DNA of 64,000 nt, from contig NZ_CP101988.1 in the NCBI RefSeq assembly GCF_024508335.1, positions 62,001 through 126,000 of the forward strand. The letters run 5' to 3'. The notes under the pieces are model-generated. The model had not been told where the DNA came from. It worked only from the letters and a program-made list of their open reading frames with translations, and searched no databases. A program made the position numbers and the translations under genes. Of the stretch, positions 1,295 through 26,475 are shown one piece after another. The DNA is from Cellulomonas chengniuliangii (GTDB lineage Bacteria > Actinomycetota > Actinomycetes > Actinomycetales > Cellulomonadaceae). Position 1 is the stretch's first letter. Each line of letters starts with the position of its first letter.

Positions 1295-4332
<3,038 letters not shown>

Positions 4333-4333
<1 letters not shown>

Positions 4334-5475: not shown

Positions 5476-5487
5476 ACCGAGCCTGAC

Positions 5488-5515: not shown

Positions 5516-5574
5516 CGGCCCCACCGCACCGCCCGCCCGGGCGTCGTGCGATCCGAACGACCCAGGAGAGACCC

Positions 5575-7347: not shown

Positions 7348-7405
7348 AGCCTCAGGCTAGATCGTGCGAGGCAAGGCAGCCTTCTGGGACACGCGCCGGC
7401 ACGGC

Positions 7406-8467
7406 ATGGTGGGGGCCGTGATCCACGAGAGCGTCCGCCCAGACAGGACGCCCCCCGCGCCCTTGATCCCTGCCGCTCCGCCGACGGGGGCCGGGCGCGC
7501 GGCCGTGCTGCCCGGAGTCTTGGCCGCAGGAGGTGTGGCTGCCGTCTGCGTGGCCGTCAGCGCCGCCCTGCCGACCTTCCCGGTGCTGCTCGCGGCCATC
7601 GGCGCCGGCCTCGCCGCACGGGTGCTCCGCCTGGTGCGGCCCGCGCTGGAGCCTGGCCTGGCCTGGACCTCTCGGCATGTGCTGCGCGCGGGCGTCGTCC
7701 TGCTGGGGCTGCAGGTCTCCGCGGCCGAGGTGCTGTCGCTCGGTGCGGCCGAGCTCGCGGTGCTGGGCGTGACCGTGGCCGTCACGTTCTGCGCGACCCG
7801 GTGGCTGGGTCCGCGCCTGGGGGTGGGCCGAGGGCTCAGCCTGCTTGTCGCCACCGGGTCCTCCATCTGCGGCGCTGCTGCGGTGGCCGCGATGAGCCCG
7901 GTGGCCGACGCGGACGAGGACGACGTCGCGACCGCGGTGGCCACCGTGACCCTCTACGGCAGTATCGCGATCCTCGTCGTGCCCCTGCTCGCCTCGGCCG
8001 CCGGCCTGGACGACCGCACGGCCGGCTTGTGGGCGGGCATGTCCGTGCACGAGGTCGCCCAGGTCGTCGCGGCCGCCGGCGCCGTCTCCGCAACGGCCCT
8101 CGCCGTGTCGGTCGTCGCCAAGCTGGCCCGGGTGGTGCTGCTGGCGCCCCTCGTCGCCGTGGTGGGCCTGCGGCGGCGACGCAGCCGCGGAGCCCAGCCG
8201 GGGGCGCGGCCGCCGATGGTCCCCCTGTTCGTGGTCGGTTTCCTGGTGGCGGTCGCCGTGCGATCCAGCGGCCTGGCGCCTGGCGCGGTGACCTCGACGG
8301 CTCGCGTCGCCACCACCCTCGCGCTGGGCGCCGCGATGGTGGCGCTCGGCAGCCAGGTCCACGTCGGACGGCTGGTGCGCAGCGGCGGGCGGGCGTTGCG
8401 CCTCGGCGCCGCGGCCACGGCAATCGCCATGTCCGTGAGCCTGGGTGGGCTGCTGCTCACCGCCTGA
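7406..8467 (+). CDS. YeiH/UPF0324-family membrane protein (putative sulfate-type exporter)
   Basis: This integral membrane protein has about ten hydrophobic helices and matches the YeiH (UPF0324) family. Family blocks are LRAGVVLLGLQVSAAEV, the motif ATGSSICGAAAVAAMSPV and GMSVHEVAQVVAAAG. Members are described as putative sulfate or oxyanion exporters; the substrate here is not proven. I chose the ATG at 7406 (353 residues), which leaves a 58-base promoter space to the divergent LysR gene. A GTG at 7364 in the same frame would add 14 residues but leave only 16 bases, and a GTG at 7418 is also possible. Regulation by the adjacent LysR protein is likely. Confidence 0.8.
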   Translation: MVGAVIHESVRPDRTPPAPLIPAAPPTGAGRAAVLPGVLAAGGVAAVCVAVSAALPTFPVLLAAIGAGLAARVLRLVRPALEPGLAWTSRHVLRAGVVLLGLQVSAAEVLSLGAAELAVLGVTVAVTFCATRWLGPRLGVGRGLSLLVATGSSICGAAAVAAMSPVADADEDDVATAVATVTLYGSIAILVVPLLASAAGLDDRTAGLWAGMSVHEVAQVVAAAGAVSATALAVSVVAKLARVVLLAPLVAVVGLRRRRSRGAQPGARPPMVPLFVVGFLVAVAVRSSGLAPGAVTSTARVATTLALGAAMVALGSQVHVGRLVRSGGRALRLGAAATAIAMSVSLGGLLLTA

Positions 8468-8539
8468 GGCCCCGAGGAGCACAGTCCCGACGAGGTTCTC
8501 AGTGCGCGGACACGCAGGAGCGGCTGGCAGAATTCCCGC

Positions 8540-8962
8540 ATGCAGCCACCCGTGCTCGTCGTCGCCGCCGCCATTGTGGACGACCTCGCCTCGCCGCGCA
8601 GCCTCCTCGCCGCGCGTCGCTCGGCGCCGACGAGCCTCGCTGGCCGCTGGGAGTTCCCCGGCGGCAAGGTGGAGCCCGGGGAGGCGCCCGAGGACGGCCT
8701 GCACCGCGAGCTGCGCGAGGAGCTCGGGATCCGCGTGACGCTCGGGTCCGAGGTGCCAGGGCCGGACGACGGGCTGTGGACCCTGTCGCCCACCTATGTG
8801 ATGCGGCTGTGGCTGGCCGAGGTGGCGCACGGCGCCCCCGAGCCGTTGGTCGAGCACGACGAGCTGCGATGGCTGGCCACGGGCCAGTGGCTCTCCGTCC
8901 CGTGGCTGGACGCCGACGTCCACATCGTGCGGTCCCTGATGTCCGTGGTCAGCAGCGTCTGA
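8540..8962 (+). CDS. Nudix hydrolase, MutT-like (probable 8-oxo-dGTP/CTP diphosphatase)
   Basis: The product is a 140-residue single-domain Nudix protein. The Nudix box is complete: GGKVEPGEAPEDGLHRELRE followed directly by ELGI, which fits GX5EX7REUXEEXGU. The N-terminal strand VLVVAAAIVDD and LAARRSAPTSLAGRWEFPGG are typical of the MutT branch that cleans oxidised nucleotides. Substrate assignment is inference from this similarity. The gene stands alone, between the YeiH-type exporter and hsp20, with 72 bases upstream and about 190 bases downstream. Confidence 0.87.
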   Translation: MQPPVLVVAAAIVDDLASPRSLLAARRSAPTSLAGRWEFPGGKVEPGEAPEDGLHRELREELGIRVTLGSEVPGPDDGLWTLSPTYVMRLWLAEVAHGAPEPLVEHDELRWLATGQWLSVPWLDADVHIVRSLMSVVSSV

Positions 8963-9128
8963 GCCCTCGCCGCCCTCGCGCGGCGGCCCTCACGGCGCGT
9001 TACTCCCTGCGCGAACCCCGCCCTCTCCCGTGGCGCGCCGCGGCGGTCGGGGTCACTGTCGAAGTGTGCCTCCGCCGCTCCACCCCGGTGGGCGCGGCGG
9101 CGGGCGCCAGGCTCCGGGGGGTCCAGAG

Positions 9129-9141
9129 CCTTGTGACAAGG
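9129..9141. promoter_or_regulatory. Inverted repeat overlapping the hsp20 leader
   Basis: CCTTGT (9129-9134) and ACAAGG (9136-9141) form a perfect 6-bp inverted repeat around one central base. It lies just before and partly over the AAGGGGG ribosome site of hsp20. It could be a repressor operator or a small RNA hairpin that masks the ribosome site. It matches neither CIRCE nor the HspR (HAIR) consensus. Confidence 0.35.
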
Positions 9142-9153
9142 GGGTGTTCGGCT

Positions 9154-9756
9154 GTGGTGACTGCATACGACCCGTTCCAGGAAATGGACAGGCTCGTCGG
9201 CCAGATGTTCGGCAGCGCCCGGGCAGCGGCGACGATGCCGATGGATCTCTACCGATCCGGCGACCACTACGTGCTGCTCGTCGACCTGCCGGGCGCCGAC
9301 CCGGGCACCATCGACGTCAGCGTGGAGGACCGGACCCTGACCATCCACGCGCAGCGGACGCCTCGCACGGAGACGGACGTGCAGTGGCTCGCTCGTGAGC
9401 GTCCGAGTGGCACCTATGCGCGGCAGCTGACGGTCAGCCGAGGCCTGGACCTGCAGGACATCACCGCGACGTACGCCGATGGCGTGCTCGCCCTCACCAT
9501 CCCGGTCGCGGAGTCGTCCAAGCCGCGGCGGGTCGAGGTGCAGCGTGGTGTCCGGGAGGCCCACCCGACGATCGAGACGTCGAGCAGCGGAAGCAGCAGC
9601 GGCGGCAGCTCGCTCGGCTCTGACGAGCCGGAGCCCGTCGCGGGCGTGTCGACCTCGACGGGGAGCCACTACCCCTCGTCCACCGAGTCGTACCCGTCCA
9701 GCAGTGAGGCGCCCGGCTCCGGCGGTGTGCAGGGATCGGGCCCGTCCACCGAGTGA
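9154..9756 (+). CDS. Hsp20/alpha-crystallin family small heat-shock protein
   Basis: This is a small ATP-independent chaperone of 200 residues. The N-terminal arm (AYDPFQEMDRLVGQMF) leads into an alpha-crystallin domain with MPMDLYRSGDHYVLLVDLPG, DVSVEDRTLTIHAQR, ERPSGTYARQLTVSRGLD and the end motif ATYADGVLALTIPV. The final 50 residues or so are a Ser/Gly-rich tail (SSSGSSSGGSSLGS...), longer and more polar than usual. I chose GTG at 9154 because AAGGGGG lies about ten bases upstream; the next codon is also GTG. The frame stays open far upstream, but that part is a shadow of other genes. A strong hairpin follows the stop. Confidence 0.9.
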   Translation: MVTAYDPFQEMDRLVGQMFGSARAAATMPMDLYRSGDHYVLLVDLPGADPGTIDVSVEDRTLTIHAQRTPRTETDVQWLARERPSGTYARQLTVSRGLDLQDITATYADGVLALTIPVAESSKPRRVEVQRGVREAHPTIETSSSGSSSGGSSLGSDEPEPVAGVSTSTGSHYPSSTESYPSSSEAPGSGGVQGSGPSTE

Positions 9757-9762
9757 CCGATC

Positions 9763-9801
9763 GACGTGTGGGCCCTGGCCGTCGGCCAGGGCCCACACGT
9801 C
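9763..9801. terminator. Bidirectional terminator hairpin between hsp20 and metE
   Basis: A perfect 18-bp inverted repeat (9763-9780 and 9784-9801) has a three-base loop. It sits between the convergent ends of hsp20 (stop at 9756) and metE (stop at 9836). There is no long T-run, as is common for terminators in high-GC actinobacteria. Confidence 0.85.
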
Positions 9802-9835
9802 TGCCACCACTCAGCGGCGGCTGCGGTCCTCCGTG

Positions 9836-12187
9836 TCAGAGCGTCGCGCGCACCGCACGGGTCGCGGCGAGGATGCTCTCGAGCGAGGGCGTGACCTCCT
9901 CGTACCGGCGGGTCTTGAGTCCGCAGTCCGGGTTGACCCAGAGCTGGTCGACGGCGATCGACTTCACCGCGGACTCGAGCAGCTCGGTGACCTCGGCCTC
10001 GCTGGGCACCCGCGGGGAGTGGATGTCGTAGACGCCGGGGCCCACCGCGCGGGGGTAGCCGGCATCGGCGATGTCGCCCAGGATCTCCATCTTGGAGCGC
10101 GCGGCCTCGATGGACGTCACATCGGCGTCCAGGCCGTCGATCGCGCCGATGACCTCGCCGAACTCGGAGTAGCACAGGTGGGTGTGGATCTGCGTGTCCG
10201 CCCGCACCCCGGAGGTCGCCAGCCGGAACGAGCGCACCGACCAGTCGAGGTACGCCGCGTGGTCGGCCGCGCGCAACGGCAGCAGCTCGCGCAGCGCCGG
10301 CTCGTCGACCTGCACGATGGCGATGCCCGCCGCCTCCAGGTCCGTGATCTCGTCCCGGAGCGCGAGCGCGACCTGGTTGGCCGTGTCGCCCAGCGGCTGG
10401 TCGTCGCGCACGAACGACCACGCCAGGATCGTCACCGGTCCGGTCAGCATGCCCTTGACGGGCTTGGAGGTCAGCGACTGCGTGTACTGCGTCCAGCCCA
10501 CCGTGATGGGCGCCGGGCGCGACACGTCGCCCCACAGGATCGACGGGCGCGTGCAGCGCGAGCCGTAGGACTGCACCCACCCGTTCTGCGTCACGGCGAA
10601 CCCGTCGAGGTTCTCCGCGAAGTACTGCACCATGTCGTTGCGCTCCGGCTCGCCGTGCACCAGCACGTCCAGCCCGATCGACTCCTGCAGCTCGACGACG
10701 CGGCGGATCTCCGCGCGCATCTCGTCCTCGTACTGCGCGGTGCTGAGGTCCCCGCGGTCGTGGGCGGCGCGGGCCTTGCGGATGTCGGGGGTCTGCGGGA
10801 ACGAGCCGATGGTCGTGGTCGGCAGCGGCGGCAGCTGCAGGCGCTGCGCCTGGGCGGCCTTGCGGTCGGCGAAGTCGCCGCGCTGGAACGCGTCCTCGCC
10901 CAGGGCCGCCAGCCGCTCGCGGACCTCGGGCCGGACGACGCCGGGGGCGTTGCGCCGGGTGGCGAGCGCGGCGTCGGCGGCCAGGATCTGCTCCTTGACG
11001 GCGAGCCCGCCCTCGGCCAGCCCGGTGGCGAGCGCGGCGACCTCGGCGACCTTCTGGTCGGCGAAAGCCAGCCACGAGCGCAGCGTGGGGTCGAGCGCAG
11101 GCTCGTCCTCGACGTCGTGCGGCACGTGGAACAGCGACGTGGACGTGCCGGCGGCGACGGTCGCCTCGGCGCCCGCGATACCGCGCAGGGACTCGAGGCG
11201 GTCGAGGGCGCGGCCCAGGTCGGCCCGCCAGACGTTGTGGCCGTCGATCACGCCGCCGACCACGACCTTGCCGGCCAGGCCGGGCACGGGCTCAGCGGGC
11301 AGGGCGCCCCGCACCAGGTCGAGCGCGATGCCCTCGATGTCCGTGGCGGCCAGCAGTGGCAGGGCCTCCCCGAGGTCACCGTAGGGCGCGGCGACGAGGA
11401 TCGCGGGGCGCTCGTCGGCCGGGATCTGGGTGGCGAGCGCGCGGTAGGCCTCCGCGACGGCGGCGTGCAGTTGCTCGGGAGTGGCGTCGACGGAGTCGGA
11501 GACCAGGGCGGGCTCGTCGAGCTGCACCCAGGTGGCTCCCGCGGCGCGCAGGTCGCGCAGCAGCTCCGCGTACACGGGCAGCACGTCCGCGAGCCGGTCG
11601 ATCGGGGAGAAGCCCTCCGGAGCGCCCTCGGTCGGCTTGGCCAGGGCCAGGTACGTCACCGGGCCGACGATCACGGGCCGGGTCAGCACGCCGTCGGCCA
11701 GGCCCTCGGCGAACTCGCGCACCGGGCGGTCGCTCGCGTAGCGGAACTCGGTCTCGGGGCCGATCTCCGGCACCAGGTAGTGGTAGTTCGTGTCGAACCA
11801 CTTGGTCATCTCGAGCGGCAGGTCCTCGCCGCGGCCGCGGGCGACCGTGGAGTACCCGGCCAGGTCCAGGCGTCCGTCGTCGCCCACCAGGTCGGCGAAC
11901 CGCGCGGGCACGGCGCCCAGCAGCGCCGTCGCGTCGAGCACCTGGTCGTAGAACGAGAAGGCGGACGGGATGGCGGGCAGGTCGGTGCGCAGCCCCAGCT
12001 CGGCGAGGCGGGTGCGGGTGCGACGGCGCAGGTCGGCCGCGACGGCCTCGACCTCGGCGGCGTCGGTGCGCCCGGCCCAGAAGGCCTCGATGGCCTTCTT
12101 GAGCTCGCGGCGCGGCCCGATGCGGGGGTAGCCGAGGACGGTGCCGGCCGGGAACTCCGGCGTGGCGGTCGTGTCGTTCGTGGTCAT
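9836..12187 (-). CDS. metE: Cobalamin-independent methionine synthase
   Basis: MetE transfers a methyl group from 5-methyltetrahydropteroyl-triglutamate to homocysteine. The protein has 783 residues. The N-terminal half holds [16 protein letters not shown] and [20 protein letters not shown]; the catalytic C-terminal half holds [45 protein letters not shown] and the zinc ligands His670 and Cys672 in HTHLCYSEF plus Cys755 in [10 protein letters not shown] chose the ATG at 12187, whose ATGA overlaps the metF stop. The frame remains open to 13105, but that is a shadow of metF. It is co-transcribed with metF behind the SAM riboswitch, so both genes should fall when S-adenosylmethionine is plentiful. 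Confidence 0.96.
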
Positions 12188-14503: not shown

Positions 14504-17500
14504 TCAGGCCTCGGCGAGGGCCTTGCGGATGCGCTTCTCGCTGACCGGCCCGTCCGTGCCGAGTTGCTGCGCGAACAGGGAGACCCGGAGCTCCTCGATC
14601 ATCCACCGCACCGCCTCGAGCGCCGCCCGCCGGTCAGGGTCGACGGCCTGCGCGTGGGCGGCCGTGGCCTCGGCCCGCGAGACGGCGGCCGCGTGCTCAC
14701 GGGTCAGCTCGGCGACGGTCCACGCCAGGGAGGCGTCGCGATCGGGATTGCCGGCCGCCTTGGCCAACCGGTGCCGGGCCGCGCGCAGGTACCGGGCCAG
14801 GTGTGGGAGCCGCGCGGCGCCCACCTCGGCGACGAACCCGACGTGCACCAGGCGGGCCGCCTGCTCGCGGACGTCCTGCAACGTGGCCAGCAGGGCCAGG
14901 CTGCTCGAGCCGCGCACCTCAGCGTCGAGCTCCCGCGCCGCGCCGAGCACCGCCACCAGGTCGGTGACGATGCGGTGCACCGTGTCCTCGATCTGCTCCC
15001 GCACGGCAGCCCGCAGAGTGGCGTAGGCGTCGGCCGTGCGGACCTCGGTGGCCGGCCGCCCGGCCAGGTGCTCGGCCAGCAGGTGGTCCACCGCGGCGAG
15101 CTGCACGTCGGCCACCAGCGCGTCGGTGCTCGGGTACGGGCTCGCGGCCAGGGTGAGCGCCTGCTGCCCCGACCAGCGGGTGGTCACGCGGGGCGTCGCC
15201 AGGGCCGTCTCGCGCAGCAGCAGCCGGCGCAGGCCGCGGCGGTGCTCGACGACCTGGGTCGCCGGATCTGCCATCACTCGCAGCGCGACGGTCCCGTCCG
15301 GCTCCTCGACCAGCGCCGGGTAGCCGCGCACCCGCAGGCCGCCAGGGCCAGACGTCTCGACGGTCAGAGGCAGGGCGCCGTCGGGCAGCGTGTCCGGCCA
15401 GGTGGTCAGGCCGGTGCGCTCGGGGATGCCGGGGGACGGTGGGGCGGCCGAGGGCGCCGAGCCCGGGGCAGGCGTCACGGCGCGTGAGGCGTCGGGGCTC
15501 GCGGAGGCGGGATCGGCGGCGGCAGGGCTCTTCGCGCCGCGGCCGCGCCCGACCTCGCGCATGGCGTCCCGCACGGCGGTGCGGACGGCGGTGCTCACCG
15601 CGTCCTGCGTGCGGTGCGCCAGCCGGCGCTGGAGCCCGATGAGGTCCTTGCCCTCCTCGACCACCTGCCCGGCGGTCTCGACGCGGAACGTCATGCGCAG
15701 GTGGGCCGGCAGCCGCTCGTCGTCGAACGCGTCCTCGGGCACCTCGACGTCGCGCATCGTGCGGACCGCCTGAGCGAACGCCTGGTGGAAGGACGGCGCG
15801 AGCTCGCCCGCGCGCACCGTGTCCTCCCAGCTCGCCAGGTGCTCGTCGAACCACGCGACGACGCCGCGGGCCACGTCCGGCGCGGGGACCAGCTGCACGC
15901 GCACCGGCTTGGGCAGCGCCCGGATGGTGGCCGTGACCAGCTCCTCGCGCAGCCCGGGGACCATCCAGCCGAAACCGTCCGGCCGCACGCGGGCCAGCAG
16001 CACGAGCGGGATGTGGACGGTGACGCCGTCCGCGTCCGTGCCCGGCTCGAACTGGTAGGTCAGCGGCAGCTCCAGGTCGCCCTGCGGCCACGTCGTGGGG
16101 AAGTCGGACTCGTCGACCGCGGCGCCGTCGTCCGCGACGAGCAGCTCGCGGGTGAAGCTCAGCAGCTCCGGGTCCGCGCGCCGCGCCGTCTTCCACCAGG
16201 TGTCGAAATGCCGGGCGGAGACCACGTCGGCGGGGATCCGCTCGTCGTAGAAGGCGAACAGGACCTCGTCGTCCACGACCAGGTCACGGCGGCGGGCACG
16301 GGCCTCGAGGCTCTCGGCCTCCCGGAGCAGGCGGCGGTTCTCGTGGAAGAACTCGTGGTGCGTGGTCCACTCGCCCTCGACCAGGGCGTGCCGGATGAAC
16401 AGCTCGCGGGCGTGCTCCGGGTCGTGCTTGGCGTAGAGCACCCGACGCTGGGCGACGATCGGCACGCCGTAGAGCAGCACGCGCTCCATCGCCATCGCGG
16501 CGCCCTGCTTGGTGGACCACGACGGCTCGGAGTAGGTGCGCTTCACCAGGTGCTGGGCGAGCTCCTCGGCCCACTCGGGCTGGATGCGCGCCGCGTCACG
16601 GGCCCACAGCCGCGACGTCTCGACGAGCTCGCCGGCCATGATCCACGCCGGCGGCCGCTTGGCCAGGGCTGATCCAGGGAAGATGGCGAACCGCGCGCCA
16701 CGGGCGCCGACGTACTCGTTGCGGCCCCGGCGGTCCGGTCGGCCTGGCGGTCGCTTGCCGCGTTGCGCGGCGGGCGGGGTGACCTCGGTGGCCTCCTGCA
16801 TGCCGATCTGGCTGAGCAGGCCCGCGAGCAGGCTCAGGTGGATGCGGTCCGCGTCCCAGTCGAGCCGCAGCGTTCCGGGGCCGTCGGCGGTGTCGGAGTC
16901 GAGGACTGTCTGGGCTGCGCCGGGGGCGGTGCGCCGGCGGGGACCGGCGGGGGCGGCGGCCTTGCCCGACGGCGCCGCGTCGGGGGCCTTCCGCTGCGGC
17001 GGCGGGTTCACCACGATGCCCAGCGGCTTCGCCAGCTCGCGCAGCTGCGTCACCACGTCCTGCCATTCGCGGATGCGCAGGTAGTTGAGGTGCTCCGCCT
17101 TGCACAGGCGGCGGAACGCCGAGCCGGACAGGTCCCGCTGCTGCTCCTTGAGGTACTGCCACAGGTTCAGGTACGTGAGGAAGTCCGACGTGGGGTCGGC
17201 GAACCGCGCGTGCGACTGGTCGGCCTGCGCGCGCTGCTCCATCGGGCGCTCGCGCGGGTCCTGGATGGACAGGGCGGCGGCGATGATCATCACCTCGCGG
17301 GCGACCCCGCGGCGGCCCGCCTCGACGATCATCCGGCCCAGGCGCGGGTCCATCGGCAGCTGGGCCAGGTCGCGGCCCACCCGGGTCAGGCCCGTGCCCG
17401 CCTCGTCGCCCGAGCCGAGGGCGCCCAGCTCAGTGAGCAGCTGCGTGCCGTCCCGCACCGAGCGGGTGTCCGGCGGGTCCACGAACGGGAACTTCGCGAT

Positions 17501-19027
17501 GTCGTCGGGCGTGGTCGCGACCCCCACCGCGATCATCTGCAGGATCACCGACGCGAGGGACGTGCGCAGGATCTCCGGCTCGGTGAACTCCGGCCGCGAG
17601 GCGAAGTCCTGCTCGGAGTAGAGGCGGATCGCGATGCCGTCCGCGACGCGCCCGCACCGGCCCGAGCGCTGGTTCGCGGACGCCTGCGAGATGGGCTCGA
17701 TGGGCAGCCGCTGCACCTTCGTGGCCTTCGAGTACCGCGAGATGCGCGCCGTGCCCGGGTCGATCACGTACCGGATGCCCGGCACGGTCAGGGACGTCTC
17801 GGCGACGTTGGTGGCCAGCACCACGCGGCGGTTGCCGTGCTGCTGGAACACCCGGTGCTGCTCCGCGGCCGACAGCCGCCCGTACAGCGGCAGGATCTCC
17901 ACGGCGTCCGGCCGGCGCAGGTCCGAGGCCCGCTCGCCGAGGTGGGAGCGCAACGCCTCCTCCGCGTCGCGGATCTCCCGCTCGCCCGAGAAGAACACCA
18001 GGATGTCGCCCGGACCCTCGGCCGCGAGCTCGTCGAACGCCTCGCAGATGGCCGTCAGCGGGTCGCGCTCCTCGACCTCGCGCGGCTTCTTCGCGCCGCG
18101 CGCCGCGGCCTTGGGCGCGCCCGGACCGCCGGCCTCGGGCTCGGGCTCCGGGTCGGGCGCCAGGGGGCGGTAGCGGACCTCGACCGGGTACGTGCGCCCG
18201 GTGACCTCGATGACCGGCGCAGGGACGCCGTCCGGGTGCTCGGCGGTGGGCGGGCCGGAGAAGTGCCGCGCGAACCGCTCGGAGTCGATCGTCGCCGAGG
18301 TGATGATCACCTTGAGCTCGGGTCGCTGGGGCAGCAGCCGGGTCAGGTACCCCAGCAGGAAGTCGATGTTGAGCGAGCGCTCGTGGGCCTCGTCGATGAT
18401 CAGGGTGTCGTAGCCGCGCAGCATGGGGTCCCGCTGGATCTGCGCCAGCAGGATGCCGTCGGTCATGACCTTCACGAGGGTGCGCTCGCTCGACTCGTCC
18501 GTGAAGCGCACCTGGTAGCCGACGAGCTCGCCGATGGACGTGCCGAGCTCGTCGGCGATGCGCTCCGCGACCGTGCGCGCGGCGATCCGGCGGGGCTGCG
18601 TGTGCCCGATCTGCCCCTCGCGGCCACGGCCCAGGTCGAGCGCGATCTTGGGCAGCTGCGTGGTCTTCCCGGAGCCGGTCTCGCCCGCGACGATCACCAC
18701 CTGGTGGTCGCGGATCGCCGCGGCGATGTCCTCGCGCCGCGCCGAGACCGGGAGCTGCTCGGGGTACGTGATGGGCGGGACGGCGGTGGCGCGGCGCACG
18801 GCGGCACGGCGCTCACGGCGGTGCTGGTCGTCCCCGCGGCCGGTGCGGCCCGGGTCATGGGGCCCGCGCTCGTTCTCCGCTCCACGCCCGGGGGCCCGGT
18901 CCGAGCGGCCTTCCGGACCCGCGGCGTCGCGGGCTGGCCGCCGGCGGGGAGGGCGGCGCCGCCGAGCCGGTCGGGAACCGGGATCGGTCCCCTCCGGGGT
19001 CGGCTGGTGCTCTCCAGGGCTGCTCAC
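14504..19027 (-). CDS. hrpA: ATP-dependent DEAH-box RNA helicase HrpA
   Basis: HrpA-type helicases unwind RNA and rescue stalled ribosomes. This one has about 1507 residues. In order there are a basic low-complexity leader of about 80 residues; the helicase core with Walker A GETGSGKTT (about 115-123), QPRRIAARTVA, DEAH (212-215) and TSATID; the second RecA lobe with the motif ASANQRSGRCGR; the HA2/OB region; and the large C-terminal DUF3418-type region. The GTG at 19027 is my choice of start. The frame is open to 19084 and an ATG in another frame nearby is not usable. The Arg/Pro-rich leader makes the true start uncertain. E. coli HrpA is about 1300 residues, so both ends are extended here. 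Confidence 0.93.
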   Translation of the reverse strand: MSSPGEHQPTPEGTDPGSRPARRRRPPRRRPARDAAGPEGRSDRAPGRGAENERGPHDPGRTGRGDDQHRRERRAAVRRATAVPPITYPEQLPVSARREDIAAAIRDHQVVIVAGETGSGKTTQLPKIALDLGRGREGQIGHTQPRRIAARTVAERIADELGTSIGELVGYQVRFTDESSERTLVKVMTDGILLAQIQRDPMLRGYDTLIIDEAHERSLNIDFLLGYLTRLLPQRPELKVIITSATIDSERFARHFSGPPTAEHPDGVPAPVIEVTGRTYPVEVRYRPLAPDPEPEPEAGGPGAPKAAARGAKKPREVEERDPLTAICEAFDELAAEGPGDILVFFSGEREIRDAEEALRSHLGERASDLRRPDAVEILPLYGRLSAAEQHRVFQQHGNRRVVLATNVAETSLTVPGIRYVIDPGTARISRYSKATKVQRLPIEPISQASANQRSGRCGRVADGIAIRLYSEQDFASRPEFTEPEILRTSLASVILQMIAVGVATTPDDIAKFPFVDPPDTRSVRDGTQLLTELGALGSGDEAGTGLTRVGRDLAQLPMDPRLGRMIVEAGRRGVAREVMIIAAALSIQDPRERPMEQRAQADQSHARFADPTSDFLTYLNLWQYLKEQQRDLSGSAFRRLCKAEHLNYLRIREWQDVVTQLRELAKPLGIVVNPPPQRKAPDAAPSGKAAAPAGPRRRTAPGAAQTVLDSDTADGPGTLRLDWDADRIHLSLLAGLLSQIGMQEATEVTPPAAQRGKRPPGRPDRRGRNEYVGARGARFAIFPGSALAKRPPAWIMAGELVETSRLWARDAARIQPEWAEELAQHLVKRTYSEPSWSTKQGAAMAMERVLLYGVPIVAQRRVLYAKHDPEHARELFIRHALVEGEWTTHHEFFHENRRLLREAESLEARARRRDLVVDDEVLFAFYDERIPADVVSARHFDTWWKTARRADPELLSFTRELLVADDGAAVDESDFPTTWPQGDLELPLTYQFEPGTDADGVTVHIPLVLLARVRPDGFGWMVPGLREELVTATIRALPKPVRVQLVPAPDVARGVVAWFDEHLASWEDTVRAGELAPSFHQAFAQAVRTMRDVEVPEDAFDDERLPAHLRMTFRVETAGQVVEEGKDLIGLQRRLAHRTQDAVSTAVRTAVRDAMREVGRGRGAKSPAAADPASASPDASRAVTPAPGSAPSAAPPSPGIPERTGLTTWPDTLPDGALPLTVETSGPGGLRVRGYPALVEEPDGTVALRVMADPATQVVEHRRGLRRLLLRETALATPRVTTRWSGQQALTLAASPYPSTDALVADVQLAAVDHLLAEHLAGRPATEVRTADAYATLRAAVREQIEDTVHRIVTDLVAVLGAARELDAEVRGSSSLALLATLQDVREQAARLVHVGFVAEVGAARLPHLARYLRAARHRLAKAAGNPDRDASLAWTVAELTREHAAAVSRAEATAAHAQAVDPDRRAALEAVRWMIEELRVSLFAQQLGTDGPVSEKRIRKALAEA

Positions 19028-19131
19028 GACCGCCCATTGTCCCTGGTGAACCTGCGAGCCGCCGCCCACAATCTCAGCCCACACGCGTGTCGTCGGGCGC
19101 CGGGGGCGAACGCGCAGCCCCTGGGTGTCTC

Positions 19132-19150
19132 ACCCCGCAAGATGCGGGGT
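19132..19150. promoter_or_regulatory. Inverted repeat between hrpA and the Mn catalase gene
   Basis: ACCCCGCA (19132-19139) and TGCGGGGT (19143-19150) form an 8-bp perfect stem with a three-base loop, 75 bases before the catalase start. It sits between divergent genes, so an operator is more likely than a terminator. The function is unknown. Confidence 0.35.
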
Positions 19151-19224
19151 CCGCCCTCCAGGGCCACAGTGGTCTTGCGCCCTCTCCTCCAGGGGGCCGA
19201 CGACTCAGCGCAGAGGAGACGGCC

Positions 19225-20196
19225 ATGTACCTGCACGTGCAGCGCCTCATCAACGAGATCGTTCCGGACGAGCCGGACCCGGCTGCCGCCAACGCGCTGC
19301 AAGAGGGGTTGGGCGGCCAATTCGGCGAGATGCGGACGATGATGCAGTACCTGTTCCAGAGCATCAACTTCCGTGGCCCGGCCGGGAAGCCCTACCGGGA
19401 CCTGCTGCAGGGCATCGGCACGGAGGAGATCAGCCACGTGGAGCTGATCGGGACCACGATCGCCCGTCTCTTGGACGGGTCGCCCCGGTACCAGGGCAGC
19501 CCCACCGACCCGCTGGACACGCCGGGGGCTGGGGGCGCCACACCGTTGGCCATCGCGCTGGACCAGAGCAACATCCACCACTACCTGGTCGCGGCCCAGG
19601 GCGCCCTGCCGGTGGACGCGGCGGGCAACCCGTGGAGCGGCTCCTACGTCTACAACTCCGGCAACCTGGTGCTCGACCTGCTGTACAACCTGATGCTCGA
19701 GTCCACCGGTCGGCTGCAGAAGTGCCGCATCTACGAGATGACCGCGAACAAGACGGCCCGCTCGACCATCGCGTACCTGATCGTCCGTGACCAGGCCCAT
19801 GAGAACGCGTACGCGCGGGCGTTGGAGACCCTGGGCGTGGACTGGGGCAAGGTCCTGCCGATCCCCAAGACCAACGCCGAGCAGTTCCCGGAGGTCAAGA
19901 AGCTGCTCGACCTCGGCCTGCAGAGCAAGCAGTACACGTTCGACCTGGCGGCGCAGTCGGAGGCTGGGAAGATCTACCAGGGGATGTCCCCGTCCCAGGA
20001 CGGCACCGTGCTCGACGCGAGCGAGCAGGCGCCCGAGGGTGTCCCGTCGACCATCGCGGCAGAGCGCTTCGAGGAGTTCGCGCCTGGGCTCGACCCCGAT
20101 CTGCTGGCGCTCATCCAGGCGACGGCCGACCTCGAGATGGCCGACGTCCAACCGCTCTACGGCCCGGTCGCCCCTGCGCCTGGAGCGACCACCTGA
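19225..20196 (+). CDS. Manganese (non-haem) catalase
   Basis: The product has 323 residues and belongs to the di-manganese catalase family, a ferritin-like four-helix bundle that turns hydrogen peroxide into water and oxygen. Ligand blocks are GQFGEMRTMMQYLFQSINF, GTEEISHVELIGTTIARLL (Glu and His) and RDQAHENAYARALETLG (His and Glu). The family segment YDLLYNLMLE is present as LVLDLLYNLMLESTGRLQ. The ATG at 19225 follows GAGGAG at 19213-19218. The gene is alone and divergent from hrpA. It would act in the cytosol against peroxide stress. Confidence 0.93.
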   Translation: MYLHVQRLINEIVPDEPDPAAANALQEGLGGQFGEMRTMMQYLFQSINFRGPAGKPYRDLLQGIGTEEISHVELIGTTIARLLDGSPRYQGSPTDPLDTPGAGGATPLAIALDQSNIHHYLVAAQGALPVDAAGNPWSGSYVYNSGNLVLDLLYNLMLESTGRLQKCRIYEMTANKTARSTIAYLIVRDQAHENAYARALETLGVDWGKVLPIPKTNAEQFPEVKKLLDLGLQSKQYTFDLAAQSEAGKIYQGMSPSQDGTVLDASEQAPEGVPSTIAAERFEEFAPGLDPDLLALIQATADLEMADVQPLYGPVAPAPGATT

Positions 20197-21515: not shown

Positions 21516-21675
21516 GTGGACACGCTATGCCCGGAGTGCCCCGACCTGGGGGACCCGGCCCGTACATTGGCCGATCGCACGAGAGGTGCGAATCGGACTG
21601 CGCACGGACTGCACACCTGGGCGTCGAGCCGCGTCTTCAGAGGGTCAGCAAGTTCGCGACACACCTGGAGGACCG

Positions 21676-22269
21676 ATGAACGACATCACCACGACCCCGA
21701 TGTCCACACTCGCGGACGGCGAGGCCCGCCCCCGCCGCCGGTGGATGACCGTCGGCCTGATCGCCGCGGGCCTGTCCCTCGCCGGTGGCGGAGTCGCGAT
21801 GGCCACCGGGCTCGGCTCGGGCGCCGACGGCGCAACGGCAGGCGGCCAGGAGGTCGCCGCGGCGCAGACGGTCAGCGACGCCGCCGCGGCGGCCGAGCCC
21901 ATCAGTGCCGACGTCTCCGCGGCCCTCGAGGCCTTCTGGGCCGCGGACTACTCCTTGGCTGACGTGACCAGGCTCGCCGACCTGTGGCAGGTCGAGGACG
22001 CGTACGAGGTCAAGGCCCGTGCGGGCCAGCTGATCCTGGACGGCAAGCAGGCGGAGCTGGGCGCCCCGACCCCGGAGGTCGTGGACCCGATCACCGAAGC
22101 CGCCACCGCGTTCTGGGACGCCGGCTACACCTACGAGGACGCCCAGCAGCTCGCCGCGCTGTGGAGCTCGGAGGACACCTACGAGGCCAAGATCGCCGCG
22201 GGCCAGAAGCTGCTCGCTGGCGAGACCCTGCCGGTGCCGCCGAGTGGGCAGGTCCCCGCGGCGGGCTGA
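21676..22269 (+). CDS. Membrane-anchored repeat protein A (paralogue of the protein at 24042)
   Basis: The product has 197 residues: a short polar N-terminus, one hydrophobic helix (about 24-43), an Ala-rich linker, and two outside repeats of about 40 residues (86-126 and 145-182). The repeat pattern is FWxxxY...D...LAxLWxxxDxYExKxxAGQxLLxG. The C-terminus is ETLPVPPSG... The repeat region and end are closely related to the protein encoded at 24042-24749, including 35 identical bases in a row (22021-22055 versus 24492-24526). The ATG at 21676 has TGGAGGACCG before it. It is the first gene of a four-gene operon (repeat protein A, amidoligase, sigma factor, repeat protein B). I do not recognise the repeat family. 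Confidence 0.85.
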   Translation: MNDITTTPMSTLADGEARPRRRWMTVGLIAAGLSLAGGGVAMATGLGSGADGATAGGQEVAAAQTVSDAAAAAEPISADVSAALEAFWAADYSLADVTRLADLWQVEDAYEVKARAGQLILDGKQAELGAPTPEVVDPITEAATAFWDAGYTYEDAQQLAALWSSEDTYEAKIAAGQKLLAGETLPVPPSGQVPAAG

Positions 22270-22327
22270 CGCCCGACGTGCGATCCGCCCGGCACCCCTG
22301 ACCCGCTTGCGAGGAGATGACATCGAC

Positions 22328-23416
22328 GTGGACGAGCTGCTGTTGCGCACAGGCTTCGAGATCGAGCTGCTGGCGCCCGCCGGGTCCGACCGGCAGATGC
22401 TGGCAGACGAGCTCGCGGCGCGGTGCGCCGGGAGGGTGCGGCGGTCGTTCCACGTCGACAGCGAGCCGTCAGCGGTGCCGGGCGTGGGGGTGTTCCGGCA
22501 CCTGTCCCCAGCGTTCGACGTGGTCGACGAGCATGGCCGGCCCGTCGCTCGCCTGATGGACGACATCACCATCCAGCGGGACCTGTCTCCGGCGCCCGGG
22601 AACCTGGGGGGGCCCGGGCGCCGGGACTGGTACCGCGTCCTGTGCGACGAGGGGCGCCTGCTGCGCCTGATCGAGCGGCACACCGACCCGAACGCGTCGC
22701 TGGCCACGGTGCTGGACCCGGTGGCCGAGCTGTTCGGCTCCAGGGTCGACCTGCTCCCCGGCGCGGCGCGGGTGAACGACTCCGCGGGCGCCACCGTGGC
22801 GGTGGCCATGACCCTGCCCCCGGGGCGGGAGCGCCCCTGCGAGATCGTCACGCCGCCGATCGAGCGCCACCACGCCCTGGCGCTCGAGCGCCTGCTGGGC
22901 CCCGCCCGTGAGCTCGGCTTCACTGTCCCTCGCGAGGCCGCGGTGCACCTGCATCTGGACGGCGCACCGTTCCGCCGCCCCGAGTCGTTCGCCAACGTGG
23001 TTCGGCTGTTCGGGCACTGGCGGGAGGAGCTTTGGGCGGCACTCGACGCCAACCCCGACTGCCAGCGGCTGGCGCCGCTGCCCCAGGAGCTCGTGGACCT
23101 CGTCGAGCTCCCTTGGCAGGAGGCCGGCGACCGCAGCGCCTGGACGCTGATGCGGGACGCGGCGCAGGGCGCCGGCGTGACGAAGTTCGCCGACGTGAAC
23201 CTCAAGCAGCTGCTGACCGACCGCCCTGTGCGGGACACCTTGGAGGTGCGCATTTTGCCCGGAGACCTTGACACCAGCGCGATCGTGCGGCGCGCCGCCC
23301 TGGTCGAGGCGCTCCTCGCCCGATGCCTCGACCCTCGCCCGATACCCCGCCCCGACCGCTCGGCGGCACGCGACCCGCGGGGCGCGCTCGACGACCTGCT
23401 CGGGGTGCGCCGATGA
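22328..23416 (+). CDS. Amidoligase-like enzyme (COOH-NH2 ligase of the GCS fold, Amidoligase_2 type)
   Basis: The product has about 362 residues. It carries the marks of the amidoligase family related to glutamate-cysteine ligase: TGFEIELLAP at the N-terminus (residues 8-17), HVDSEPS (42-48), the motif CEIVTPPI (171-178), HLHLDG (207-212), and the end block KFADVNLKQLLTDRPVRDTLEVRILPG (about 286-312). Such enzymes use ATP to join a carboxylate to an amine and are known from peptide and protein modification systems. I chose GTG at 22328 because GAGGAG lies 11 bases upstream; an in-frame TTG lies at 22307. Its stop overlaps the sigma factor start (ATGA). Sitting between two paralogous repeat proteins, it may modify them or their cell-wall partner; that is inference. 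Confidence 0.8.
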   Translation: MDELLLRTGFEIELLAPAGSDRQMLADELAARCAGRVRRSFHVDSEPSAVPGVGVFRHLSPAFDVVDEHGRPVARLMDDITIQRDLSPAPGNLGGPGRRDWYRVLCDEGRLLRLIERHTDPNASLATVLDPVAELFGSRVDLLPGAARVNDSAGATVAVAMTLPPGRERPCEIVTPPIERHHALALERLLGPARELGFTVPREAAVHLHLDGAPFRRPESFANVVRLFGHWREELWAALDANPDCQRLAPLPQELVDLVELPWQEAGDRSAWTLMRDAAQGAGVTKFADVNLKQLLTDRPVRDTLEVRILPGDLDTSAIVRRAALVEALLARCLDPRPIPRPDRSAARDPRGALDDLLGVRR

Positions 23417-24045
23417 GCACGTGGACCCACGCGCCCCGGCCGGACAGCGCGGCGATCCCGCGCGTGCGGCCGTGGCGGGAGATCGTCGATTTCAACGTGG
23501 TCTCCGGCGAGAGTCGGGCGGCGTCCGGAGCCACGCCCCCGCAGCAACGGCTCGACGACGTGGTACGCGCCTATCTGCCCGGGCTGCTGCGGTACGCGAC
23601 CGTGCTGACCGGCGACGGGCACACCGCCGCCGACCTGGTCCAAGAGGTGCTGCTCCGCGCCCATGTGCGGTGGAACCGCATCGCGATCATGGACCGGCCC
23701 GACCTGTACCTGCGGCGGATGGTGACCAACGAGCACCTGTCCTGGCGGCGTCGCTGGCATGTGCGCACGATCCAGGCCGCAGCCGATGATGTCCTCGCCG
23801 CCCATGCCGACCCGGAGCAGGACCACGCCCGGAGGGTTGTCGAGGATGACGCGATGTGGCAGGCCTTGGCGACGTTGCCGCCCCGGCAACGGGCGGTCCT
23901 TGTGCTCCGCTTCTACGAGGGCCTGTCCGACCTCGAGATCGCCAAGGTCCTGAACACCTCCGGGGCCACCGTCCGCTCCCACGCCTCCCGGGCGTTGGCC
24001 AGCCTTCGCGCCACCCACATCTCGACCACCACGGAGCAGCCATGA
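23413..24045 (+). CDS. SigE-family (ECF-type) RNA polymerase sigma factor
   Basis: The product has 210 residues. Region 2 is seen in VVRAYLPGLLRYATVLTGDG and AADLVQEVLLRAHVRW (about residues 47-88), with RRMVTNEHLSWRRR following. Region 4 is LATLPPRQRAVLVLRFYEGL with the HTH LSDLEIAKVLNTSGATVRSH (about 155-195). The layout fits the SigE family of short actinobacterial sigma factors. The first 40 residues are an extra leader. The ATG at 23413 overlaps the amidoligase stop, and the stop overlaps the next gene start; both are ATGA. The gene is thus tightly coupled to the membrane repeat protein, the usual place for an anti-sigma factor. Confidence 0.92.
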   Translation: MSTWTHAPRPDSAAIPRVRPWREIVDFNVVSGESRAASGATPPQQRLDDVVRAYLPGLLRYATVLTGDGHTAADLVQEVLLRAHVRWNRIAIMDRPDLYLRRMVTNEHLSWRRRWHVRTIQAAADDVLAAHADPEQDHARRVVEDDAMWQALATLPPRQRAVLVLRFYEGLSDLEIAKVLNTSGATVRSHASRALASLRATHISTTTEQP

Positions 24046-24749
24046 GCACCCACTTGCGAGCCATCAACGGCTCGGGCGAAGACCCGCACTCGGACGCCGA
24101 GCTGATGGACCGGATCGACCGCGCCCTGCGATCACGCGAGGCCGCCGCGCCGGATGCCTCCGTCGTGGCCGAGCGCATCGAGGACAGGCTCGCCGAGCTG
24201 CCCACCGGCACGGCTGCCCGTCGCGGCACGAAGATCCTCGTCGCGGGCGTCGTGACCTCGACCCTCGCCGTGGTGGGCGCGGGCGCCGCGGCTGCTGCCG
24301 ATCCGTACTCGAACGTCGCGCGGGCGGTCGAGAACGCCGTTCAGGCGGTGGGCGTCGATTGGTCGCCGATGCCGGACGGGTACACGCGCGCCCAGTACGA
24401 CGCGTTCTGGGGTACTGGCTACTCCTCGGTGGACATCGCCAGGCTCGGTGAACTGTGGCAGCTCGATGACGCGCTCGAGATCAAGGCTCGGGCGGGCCAG
24501 CTGATCCTGGACGGCAAGCAGGCGGACCTCGGGAATGCCACCCCCGAGGTGACGGACCAGGAGAGTGACGCCGCTATCGCCTTCTGGGACGCGGGCTACA
24601 GCGGCGAGGACATCGCCAAGCTCGGCCAGCTGTGGAACGTGGAAGACACCTACGAGGTCAAGATCACCGCTGGCGAGAAGCTCCTCGCGGGGGAGGCCCT
24701 GCCGATCCCTCCGAGCGGCACGCCGGCGAGCGCGACCCCGAGGCCCTGA
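24042..24749 (+). CDS. Membrane-anchored repeat protein B, candidate anti-sigma partner
   Basis: The product has 235 residues: a charged cytosolic segment of about 60 residues (SDAELMDRIDRALRSREAAA, DASVVAERIEDRLAEL), one membrane helix (about 64-86), then outside repeats at 119-159 and 179-217 with the same FW..GY...D...L..LW...D.YE.K pattern as the protein at 21676. It ends ALPIPPSGTP. Its place directly after the sigma gene (ATGA overlap), with one membrane helix and an inside N-terminus, is what is expected of a membrane anti-sigma factor. I see no ZAS zinc motif (HxxxCxxC), so the sigma-binding part would be of another type. The frame is open upstream, but that is a shadow of the sigma gene. 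Confidence 0.85.
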   Translation: MSTHLRAINGSGEDPHSDAELMDRIDRALRSREAAAPDASVVAERIEDRLAELPTGTAARRGTKILVAGVVTSTLAVVGAGAAAAADPYSNVARAVENAVQAVGVDWSPMPDGYTRAQYDAFWGTGYSSVDIARLGELWQLDDALEIKARAGQLILDGKQADLGNATPEVTDQESDAAIAFWDAGYSGEDIAKLGQLWNVEDTYEVKITAGEKLLAGEALPIPPSGTPASATPRP

Positions 24750-24811: not shown

Positions 24812-25612
24812 TCAGACGAGTGCCAGCAGCCCGGTCGCCAGGACGAGGCTGGCCACGACCTCGCCGAGGCCGATCCAGCGGGCTGCCAGGCCGGGCCACA
24901 GCTGCGGGACCACGGCGGCCCGCACGGTGAGGAGTGCGAACACCGCGCCGAGCCACGGCTGCGCGAGCGCCGCCAGCACGGTCACCAGTGCGTGGTAGCC
25001 GATCGACGCGGCGTGGACGGCCCGGTTGCCGCGATCGCGGATCAGGGACTTCACGTACAGCACCGTGCCGCCGAAGTAGGCGAGCAGCAGCCCCGCGAGC
25101 AGCCACACCTCCGGCAGGTCGGACCCTGGCAGCCAGACGTCGCCCCGCTGCGCCTGTGACCCGACACCGGCCGCGACCACGGTCATCAGGCACGCCGCGA
25201 CGAGCGTGACGCCGTCGTTGAGGTACGAGCGGTCCGCCCTCCGCCACGAGCACCACAGGCTGACGGCCAGCAGGGGCAGGTACACCGGTACCCAGCGCGC
25301 CAGCTCTCCGGCCACCGCCAGCACCACGAGCGCCAGCACCGCCGTCGCGATGCCGTAGGCCCGCACCGGGGGCAGGTAGCGGGCCTTGAGCCGAGACCGC
25401 AACCAGAGCCCGGCCGCGAAGAACGCGAAGTACCCGACGAGCCAGACGGCCAGCAGCGGGACGTGCCGCCACGACGGCCCCGCGTGCAGCGCCCCGACGG
25501 CGAAGGGCACGACCAGCATCGCCCACGCGCCGTGCTGGTTCGGCGCCCACCCCGGCGAGCGGCGACGGCGCGGCCGGGGCGCGGTTTGCCGCGTGGGGGT
25601 GGTGGTGGGCAC
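24812..25612 (-). CDS. YwiC-like integral membrane protein
   Basis: The product has about 266 residues and several membrane helices. After a short basic leader (TPRPRRRRSPG-type) comes the family motif WAPNQHGAWAMLVVPFAVGA, then hydrophobic helices with SWRRADRSYLNDG and GTVLYVKSLIRDRGN in the loops. These are marks of the YwiC-like family, whose function is unknown. I chose GTG at 25612, where the leader begins VPTTTPTRQ. The frame is open to 25762, but the extra part runs through an 18-bp tandem repeat and looks non-coding. Confidence 0.82.
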   Translation of the reverse strand: MPTTTPTRQTAPRPRRRRSPGWAPNQHGAWAMLVVPFAVGALHAGPSWRHVPLLAVWLVGYFAFFAAGLWLRSRLKARYLPPVRAYGIATAVLALVVLAVAGELARWVPVYLPLLAVSLWCSWRRADRSYLNDGVTLVAACLMTVVAAGVGSQAQRGDVWLPGSDLPEVWLLAGLLLAYFGGTVLYVKSLIRDRGNRAVHAASIGYHALVTVLAALAQPWLGAVFALLTVRAAVVPQLWPGLAARWIGLGEVVASLVLATGLLALV

Positions 25613-25629
25613 GGCTCGACCGTAGCGGC

Positions 25630-25665
25630 GAGTCACGATGCCGCGGTGAGTCACGATGCCGCGGT
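25630..25665. repeat. Tandem 18-bp direct repeat
   Basis: The unit GAGTCACGATGCCGCGGT occurs twice in a row (25630-25647 and 25648-25665) in the gap between the divergent YwiC-like gene and the DUF2975-like gene. It may be a recent slippage duplication in the promoter region. Confidence 0.85.
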
Positions 25666-25728
25666 GAGGGACGAGCTCAAGTCGCGCATCTCGATTGTCG
25701 ATATGCCAGGTGAGGAAGTGGCACCCCG

Positions 25729-26475
25729 ATGATCGAGACGGAGCACGTCGTGACTTCAGCACCAGAGGCGCCGCGCAGGACGCCCGCTCTCACCTCGGCT
25801 GCCCCGGTGGGCGCCCTGACGGTGATCGCGTGGCTGGCCGTCGCCGTGGGTGTCCTCCTCGGGATCATGTCGCTGGACGGCCCTCTGACCGGGGCCGTGC
25901 CGGTGCGGCTCACCACGGCGGCGCCCGCCTCCCAGGACGTGGTCCTGCCCTGCGTCGAGGGGTGGTCGCTCGACGGCGGCAGCTGCGCTCCGGCGGCGCC
26001 GTCCGCGCAGTGGCACGGTGGCGCCGCCCTCCCCGTCCGGAACGCAGGCGGCATGGTCGCCGAGGCGCACGCGCTCGGCGCGGTGTCCCTGCTCGCCGCC
26101 TCTCCCCTGTGGGTGGGACTCATCGCCGGGGGCGGGGCGGGTCTCGCCCTGATCCCGGTGCTGCGTGCGACCGCCGACGGCCGCCCCTTCGCTCGCGGGA
26201 ACGCCCGCGGACTGGCCGTCGCCTCCGCGCTCGCCCTGATGGGCGGCGCGCTGGCCACCGCCGGGCCGATGCTGGCGGCGCCGAGCGTCATCGCCTCGAT
26301 CGAGGCCATGACCATCCACTCCGCCAACGGCGCATTCGACATGCCCGACGGCTGGATCGAGCCAGCGCTCCAGATCGTCTGGTGGCCCGTGGTCGTCGCC
26401 GCGCTCCTCGCCGCCCTGGCGGCGGTCACCCACAGGGGCGCGCGCCTCGCCGCCGACGTCGAGGGCCTCGTGTGA
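25729..26475 (+). CDS. DUF2975-like membrane protein
   Basis: The product has 248 residues with about four hydrophobic helices (near 30-48, 112-142, 158-182 and 212-238). A cysteine pair lies in the first outside loop (LPCVEGWSLDGGSC). The block DGRPFARGNARGLAVASAL between helices is typical of DUF2975 proteins. It overlaps the next gene, an HTH protein, by four bases (GTGA); this pairing of a DUF2975 membrane protein with a YozG-like HTH regulator is a recurring one. The function is not known. ATG at 25729 begins MIETEHVV; a GTG eight codons in could also start it. Confidence 0.78.
   Translation: MIETEHVVTSAPEAPRRTPALTSAAPVGALTVIAWLAVAVGVLLGIMSLDGPLTGAVPVRLTTAAPASQDVVLPCVEGWSLDGGSCAPAAPSAQWHGGAALPVRNAGGMVAEAHALGAVSLLAASPLWVGLIAGGGAGLALIPVLRATADGRPFARGNARGLAVASALALMGGALATAGPMLAAPSVIASIEAMTIHSANGAFDMPDGWIEPALQIVWWPVVVAALLAALAAVTHRGARLAADVEGLV

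Follow-up and report, generated by a model that had tools for sequence, protein, structure and literature searches.

The window analysed here, a stretch of 64,000 nucleotides from the Cellulomonas chengniuliangii contig NZ_CP101988.1 (positions 62,001 to 126,000) within a 3.57-Mb genome on a single contig, holds an operon for a two-repeat protein (gene A), an amidoligase (gene 2), a sigma factor of the extracytoplasmic function (ECF) type (gene 3) and a second two-repeat protein (gene B). The repeat protein is referred to below as REP, the amidoligase as AMD and the sigma gene as SIG. Comparison of genomes shows REP and AMD behaving as one evolutionary unit whose members rarely occur apart, and by gene content this pair is the invariant core of the module, with the sigma factor as its exchangeable controller. 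The reading that we prefer, and that we put at somewhat under an even chance, is of a self-contained, self-amplifying envelope module in which AMD would act on the REP proteins and B would hold the sigma factor.

The original prediction, made from the letters of the window, had described four co-directional genes separated by at most 58 nt, with ATGA at the last two junctions, and the coordinates of the open reading frames confirm this: gene A and the amidoligase gene are 58 nt apart, and the AMD/sigma and sigma/B junctions are 4-nt ATGA overlaps. The two repeat copies that it had seen in A and in B were recovered with a profile built from relatives, and its amidoligase scores above the Pfam gathering cut-off for PF12224 Amidoligase_2 (E 2.6e-13, 50.9 bits, cut-off 22). 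Its key check was the recurrence of the amidoligase, repeat and sigma neighbourhood; the gene order was found widely in other genera, and the operon is therefore beyond chance. The idea of a four-gene system stood in part, since REP and AMD are constant while some lineages lack the sigma factor or have two-component regulators in its place.

The repeat protein and the amidoligase as a unit

Among the 79 named loci, which are the best of 160 AMD relatives in named genomes, REP lies directly 5' of AMD in 77, with a gap between the domains of at most 159 nt; of the two loci without an upstream REP, one is at a contig end and the other is a second copy. Within the family, AMD was detected in 52 and REP in 56 of 221 genomes, REP being present in 52/52 genomes with AMD and in 4/169 of the others (Fisher p 2.5e-46, kinship ignored). 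The five genomes of the class sample of 394 in which REP was found (G000, G632, G636, G652 and G684) are the five with a near-full-length AMD, and PF12224, searched in a class sample of 335 genomes, was found in the same five REP-linked genomes. In each genome the whole-genome searches scored only a restricted set of first-look candidates, and absences are given at that sensitivity.

REP without AMD was seen in only four of the family genomes (G009, G045, G155 and G186). The match in G009 sits on a 3.1-kb contig, and G186 retains gene A with its promoter element; a further genome, G013, gives weak matches for both AMD and REP, the AMD match being a fragment. G045 has a lone REP gene (locus L196, ~3050-3650) that has the promoter element of the cassette; its 5' part is like gene A and its 3' part like B, the latter matching a B gene at 88% over 184 nt, and neither AMD nor sigma was detected in the 7 kb around it. 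This gene looks like a deletion scar, in which AMD and sigma would have been lost via recombination between the flanking paralogues.

An unlinked extra two-repeat gene was observed in nine stretches from cassette-bearing family genomes (L192, L197-L202, L204 and L206). When the regions upstream of these nine genes and of the linked REP gene of L194 are taken together, 8/10 have a TCTAGGGTGG-like stretch in common, and 5/10 also have CCGCGTGTCG before it, unlike the cassette element; these stretches may represent another class of REP promoter. In L142 and L065 REP and AMD form a pair that lacks sigma. The REP start of L142 (Cellulomonas) resembles by eye the unlinked third REP type, which may go back to a second cassette whose amidoligase was subsequently lost.

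The module is widely but patchily distributed and is found in many soil and plant actinobacteria. AMD relatives occur in 5/7 genomes of the genus, in 8/25 genera of the family, in 22/396 genomes of the order sample and in 6/394 of the class sample; a few of them are fragments, such as the sixth class-sample match, 71 residues in G906. The hosts of the named loci are Cellulomonas, Actinotalea, Promicromonospora, Sanguibacter, Kineococcus, Kineosporia, Actinoplanes and its relatives, Agreia, Frigoribacterium, Curtobacterium and Acidothermaceae. The order SIG-REP-AMD accounts for 32/79 named loci (the Actinoplanes group, 3/4 Kineococcus and Acidothermaceae) and REP-AMD-SIG-REP for 28/79 (cellulomonads and their kin and Kineococcus vitellinus; one locus has an extra REP). 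REP-AMD alone was found in 12/79, AMD-SIG-REP in 2/79 (the contig end and the second copy), and REP-AMD-SIG in 5/79, where four of the supposed sigma genes turned out on inspection to be response regulators and the fifth locus is at a contig end. The response regulators of L148, L151, L164 and L191 had matched sigma weakly, and these loci are counted as sigma-less. The 67 sigma-type loci less L142 and three at contig ends (L129, L131 and L132) leave 63 with the sigma factor seen, to be compared with 12 sigma-less loci, among which L158 cannot be judged, having little upstream DNA on its contig. In 30 family loci sigma adjoins AMD in 29, and REP genes stand on both sides in 27.

The sigma factor is absent from seven Microbacteriaceae loci, six of which have one common protein cluster 3' of AMD. 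In the three Microbacteriaceae loci run against Pfam, the L148 member of this cluster is a HisKA_3 kinase, L150 has a LuxR-type response regulator, and L155, the one locus of the seven outside the cluster, has an OmpR-type regulator and a HisKA kinase; as read from domain content, the sigma factor is replaced by two-component regulators in Microbacteriaceae. Neighbour families other than REP, AMD and SIG within ~6 kb occur in at most four genus labels (30 top clusters listed), and the module therefore has no further constant partner and lies in varied surroundings. In the AMD tree, Kineococcus vitellinus falls inside a 36-row Cellulomonas-Promicromonospora clade (100/100), apart from the other Kineococcus, and this placement together with its four-gene form would fit horizontal transfer. 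The module as phage or plasmid cargo was dropped as an explanation, because viral contigs, plasmids and phages yielded no AMD relatives at the search sensitivity used.

Some individual loci depart from these patterns. In L195 (G037, 3600-10400) gene A and the promoter element lie ~6.9 kb from AMD-SIG-B, and the interposed DNA, which encodes an EAD1/trypsin-like protein and an AAA ATPase, resembles a conflict or defence island that entered the cassette. Cellulomonas phragmiteti (L058, G060; L120) has two cassettes ~7 kb apart in one genome, one AMD lacking an upstream REP and having the promoter element directly 5' of it. In L154 (Kineosporia, 6857-10008) two proteins come after REP-AMD whose beta-propeller matches (DUF5122 and Rax2) are weak and below the cut-off; these proteins are possible alternative partners. 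The AMD matches of L106 (G354, 6002-6972) lie in two overlapping frames, reflecting a real break or a sequencing error.

The sigma factor, gene B and the promoter element

The product of gene 3 matches the Pfam families Sigma70_r2 (38.2 bits, cut-off 24) and r4_2 (59 bits, cut-off 25.7). It had been called SigE-type in the original prediction, which was right as to kind; its best NCBIfam model, TIGR02983 (SigE-fam_strep), gives 140.7 bits against a cut-off of 141.55 and thus stays 0.85 below it. Gene B has the layout of an anti-sigma factor, with a cytosolic N-domain and one membrane segment in the predicted topology and with a sigma factor encoded beside it. The N-domain of B in cellulomonads aligns with that of the Actinoplanes-type REP (hhalign probability 90, E 1.5e-6), and in the domain search it was present on REP proteins in 60/63 loci with sigma seen and in 0/12 sigma-less loci. 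Since 30 of the 63 sigma loci supplied the two N-domain alignments, the count in the sigma loci outside those building the domain models is given separately, at 30/33. The sigma-less loci have an upstream REP with a signal or anchor region and no N-domain, where the start was assigned. No Pfam family was found for gene A or gene B at E up to 5, known anti-sigma families included in the case of B, and gene B has a single unrelated weak match in NCBIfam (E 0.092). Because the N-domain occurs only with sigma in the loci examined and the SIG and B genes overlap (ATGA at 27/30 junctions), B is best read as a predicted membrane anti-sigma factor with the repeat as its sensor, and the same two observations back the earlier proposal that B is the membrane partner of the sigma factor.

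The element CTcCACAcCnGGGcgtCGAGCCGCGTtcT (27 loci) was found 5' of gene A in 27/27 family-type loci for which the start of gene A had been assigned; 32 such loci had been entered, and L028 and L066 (no start) and L030, L034 and L083 (no gene A) were excluded. Its GCGT lies 39-46 nt from the gene A start in 24/27 loci, and the gene A starts of L005, L023 and L067 were placed too far downstream. A position weight matrix (PWM) of the element scores 54.5 in the window and gave 0 matches in 211 kb of shuffled control, and in 61 stretches it matched only before cassettes or their remnants, including loci outside the PWM training. The regular expression was written after the sequences had been viewed, and the PWM and the motif count rest partly on the same loci or close relatives. 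No PWM match was found in 19/20 order- and class-level loci (L093-L112), in L050 and L065, or before unlinked REP genes; given the silence in the order- and class-level loci, the PWM element is therefore family-specific.

A related motif extends beyond the family. TGCACA-N16-CGTC is the top gapped motif 5' of sigma in Actinoplanes-type operons (18/32), and the core T[GC][CA]ACA-N16-CGT[CT] occurs within 420 nt upstream in 46/79 loci, where 0.5 would be expected from its density elsewhere. The loci with this core include 44/63 of those with sigma seen and 0/12 of the sigma-less ones. The element thus goes with this linked sigma factor in both gene orders, and the operon itself is the main predicted target of the factor. 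In most of the lineages seen, the module therefore has a promoter element of its own. In the genome of the window the longer pattern with up to 3 mismatches has one site, the reversed control pattern also giving one match, and no wider sigma regulon was found above the reversed-control level in the genus with a strict pattern that may miss weaker targets.

These observations bear on the idea that the sigma factor and B form an ordinary envelope-stress circuit placed by chance beside an unrelated REP-AMD pair. The occurrence of REP-AMD without sigma in some lineages would be expected under such an arrangement, as would a sigma factor of what we take to be a common type. However, B itself bears the repeat, a sigma-type promoter element lies 5' of gene A and AMD, the ends of the AMD and sigma genes overlap (ATGA in 21/30, GTGA in 9/30), and the sigma factor recurs with REP-AMD in two gene orders, which makes a chance neighbourhood very improbable.

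Possible action of the amidoligase

Pfam calls PF12224 a putative amidoligase family, and its members are presumably the glutamine-synthetase/GCS-like amidoligases that they are predicted to be. By identity, the nearest AMD among the named loci belongs to Cellulomonas timonensis (91% over 333 columns). In an 80-row alignment, 20 of 21 positions that were picked by hand are invariant in every row having a residue there, among them E11, E13, H42, D44, E46, D78, D79, E172, H207, D211, N242, K286, D289, N291, E306 and R308; one row has gaps at E11 and E13, 3 rows have another residue at E168, and in a second AMD alignment L077 and L081 carry Asn at H209. We take the conserved residues to be active-site-like. 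AMD has no significant relative in the PDB by sequence or by profile, and it shows no evident export signal. We read AMD as a putative cytosolic, ATP-dependent amide-bond former. In the literature searched, as far as its text was accessible, no PF12224 member is assigned a demonstrated substrate.

The REP proteins share a repeat of 44 positions with the consensus AFxxAGYxxxDAxxLAxLWxxxDxxEAKxxAGxxLLxGxxLPxxP, profiled from 40 units and detected in 1 to 5 copies per protein. Trp is present in 262/262 aligned repeats and Lys in 253/262, and position 11 is Asp or Glu in 245/261; the Lys count is from the aligned column, a looser pattern scan having flagged 6/240 units, and the grouping of repeats used for the residue counts places L148 among the four-gene loci. 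Assignment of the repeat to a known family was dropped, as Pfam, NCBIfam, PHROGs and the PDB sequences gave weak matches alone. In A and in B one hydrophobic segment follows basic residues, and for this reason the repeats of both are predicted to lie outside the membrane.

In the mechanism that we propose, B would hold the sigma factor at the membrane until the repeats perceive a change outside and the sigma factor is released. The free sigma factor would transcribe A-AMD-sigma-B from the promoter of the operon itself, raising the amounts of REP and AMD, and the newly made B would end the response. In what is the least certain part of the scheme, AMD would act on the REP proteins by forming amide bonds, before or in the course of their export, the simplest target being the near-invariant Lys of each repeat, and the modification would determine binding or sensing by the repeats once they are exported. 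Several REP proteins of a genome, namely A, B and sometimes an unlinked third, would share one AMD, and the unlinked extra REP genes do occur in genomes having AMD. We favour REP as the substrate because of the close pairing, the adjacency, the several REP per AMD and the near-invariant Lys. The more specific version, in which AMD covalently modifies the near-invariant Lys of each 44-residue repeat before export and the amide sets envelope sensing by the anti-sigma factor, seems to us rather unlikely as it stands.

Several observations weigh against this mechanism and have to be set beside it. The Lys is dispensable in some repeats: all nine Lys-less repeats (9/9) belong to five Microbacteriaceae proteins (two of Agreia and three of Frigoribacterium), in first and last repeats, and the AMD residues are intact where these repeats lack Lys. 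The near-constant Lys could also serve structure. An obligate Asp-Lys (D11-K27) cross-link in each repeat was dropped, because acid and Lys are not lost jointly, 15/16 acid-less repeats retaining Lys and 8/9 Lys-less repeats retaining the acid. With AMD lacking an evident export signal and the repeats predicted outside, modification of REP would have to precede export, and the predicted A-type signal regions have no common twin-arginine motif by eye; Tat (twin-arginine translocation) export of pre-folded REP was dropped as a rule for that reason. As for the promoter, most unlinked REP genes have an upstream element other than that of the cassette, and the shorter core CTSCACA-N16-CGTYYT has a second site in this genome. 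It also has one or two non-cassette sites in each of the other genus genomes, at the level of the reversed control, including one site each in G003 and G004, which are without the cassette.

The main rival to REP as the substrate is modification of a wall precursor. AMD would then act in the cytosol on a precursor of the wall or of a surface polymer, for example at a carboxyl of the peptidoglycan stem peptide, the outside REP would bind or report the modified polymer, and sigma/B or the two-component system would sense the wall. We regard this as a possible explanation, if on the whole an unlikely one. It meets no membrane problem, as the enzyme is inside and the repeats are outside, it suits the conserved aromatic residues of the repeat, and ECF sigma factors with a membrane partner, like HisKA_3 kinases with LuxR-type regulators, often sense the envelope. 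However, no wall-biosynthesis gene is prominent within ~6 kb among the 30 top clusters listed, most clusters being unannotated, the near one-to-one pairing with an adjacent REP exceeds what a general wall enzyme would need, and the host lineages of the module differ in peptidoglycan type.

In another scheme, AMD would make a small secreted or intracellular metabolite, gamma-glutamyl or amide-linked, and the circuit would sense its own product with the repeats as receptor. Autoinduction agrees with a loop that activates itself and has a receptor-like B, and the survey of Iyer et al. 2009 is said to have predicted amidoligases of this fold in metabolite synthesis. But no biosynthetic gene or exporter is prominent nearby in the same clusters, and the repeat is found in A, in B and in unlinked proteins, which is more copies than one receptor needs, so that we consider a metabolite quite improbable.

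If modification of the repeat Lys by AMD is true, the module would represent a new kind of post-translational modification system in which the REP proteins are dedicated substrates and the controller is exchangeable between an ECF sigma factor and a two-component system. The genetic unit names a likely partner for PF12224, a repeat protein that rarely occurs without the enzyme, and the exchange of the two controllers beside the same core is a case of modular rewiring. The repeat, for which no Pfam entry was found, merits one. The module is compact and is present in the cultured genera Cellulomonas, Actinoplanes and Promicromonospora.

The operon in its setting and among known systems

The features of the operon are collected in Table 1. 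Around it lie genes for a manganese catalase, a DUF3418 HrpA-type helicase, an alpha/beta hydrolase and YwiC (window 14504-20196 and 24812-25762), which are ordinary neighbours. In the four genus neighbourhoods compared (L046-L049), G006 and G002 have the helicase, the hydrolase and YwiC in common with the window, and G001 and G005 have 0/8 of the window neighbours tested. No clean empty site was found: YwiC relatives occur in the cassette-less G003 and G004, but the hydrolase was not found in their ~1.5-kb flanks.

Table 1. Features of the operon and its upstream region, in positions of the window
Feature	Positions	Strand	Description
Promoter-like ECF-type element	21609-21637	+	-35 CTGCACA, 16 nt, -10 CGTCTT; gene A 38 nt on
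Gene A	21676-22269	+	197 residues; exported or N-anchored two-repeat protein; directly 5' of amidoligase
Repeat 1, gene A	21931-22050	+	profile positions 1-39; E 4.6e-14; G000:C1:83931-84050
Repeat 2, gene A	22108-22242	+	profile match, E 5.8e-23; G000:C1:84108-84242
Amidoligase	22328-23416	+	362 residues; GTG start; PF12224
Sigma factor, ECF-type, SigE-like	23413-24045	+	210 residues; Sigma70_r2 and r4
Gene B	24042-24749	+	235 residues; predicted membrane anti-sigma factor/sensor, two repeats outside
Cytosolic N-domain of B	24093-24200	+	residues ~18-53; kin to Actinoplanes-type REP N-domain
Hydrophobic segment of B	24231-24299	+	residues ~64-86; read from sequence and alignment of relatives
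Repeat 1, gene B	24402-24521	+	profile positions 1-39; E 1.1e-12; G000:C1:86402-86521
Repeat 2, gene B	24579-24713	+	profile match, E 4.2e-20; G000:C1:86579-86713

No description of the module was found in the accessible part of the full-text literature searched, which excluded Iyer et al. 2009 and the 2021 ECF re-classification. An anti-phage defence system was dropped on the PADLOC result, as none of its models matches A, AMD or B and the sigma factor matches only part of two CARF models. As described in the accessible text, the Rlo operon of Pseudomonas encodes a secreted aspartic peptidase, the inactive transglutaminase membrane protein RloB and the cytosolic ATP-grasp protein RloC (PMC12239564); it resembles the present operon in being an envelope operon that combines a cytosolic ligase-type protein with secreted partners. 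The four genes here are without a peptidase, transglutaminase or ATP-grasp by Pfam, and the two systems, as far as the source describes Rlo, differ in enzyme family, partner protein and regulator.

Graspetides are ribosomally synthesized and post-translationally modified peptides (RiPPs) made by ATP-grasp ligases, according to the part of the review consulted (PMC8939145), and they share with our proposal an ATP-dependent side-chain ligation on repeated motifs. Unlike their ligases, AMD is not an ATP-grasp enzyme by Pfam, and A, B and the listed B orthologues are proteins of 189-292 residues with a membrane segment and not short precursors; the term 'sigma factor' is absent from the accessible text of PMC8939145. 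Membership among the RiPPs or graspetides was dropped, because gene 2 matches only PF12224 and no ATP-grasp family, and REP is long, with a membrane segment.

As in the present operon, an ECF sigma factor paired with a membrane anti-sigma factor has sigma regions 2 and 4, is followed by an overlapping gene whose single-pass product bears a predicted cytosolic N-domain, and has a promoter element before its own operon, but B matches no anti-sigma family of Pfam and its outside part is made of repeats like those of the co-encoded exported A. The likeness to Amidoligase_2 (PF12224) lies in the score of gene 2 and in the conserved acidic, His, Lys, Asn and Arg positions, and the difference is that here the enzyme is tied to an unnamed repeat protein and, in most of the lineages seen, to an ECF sigma factor.

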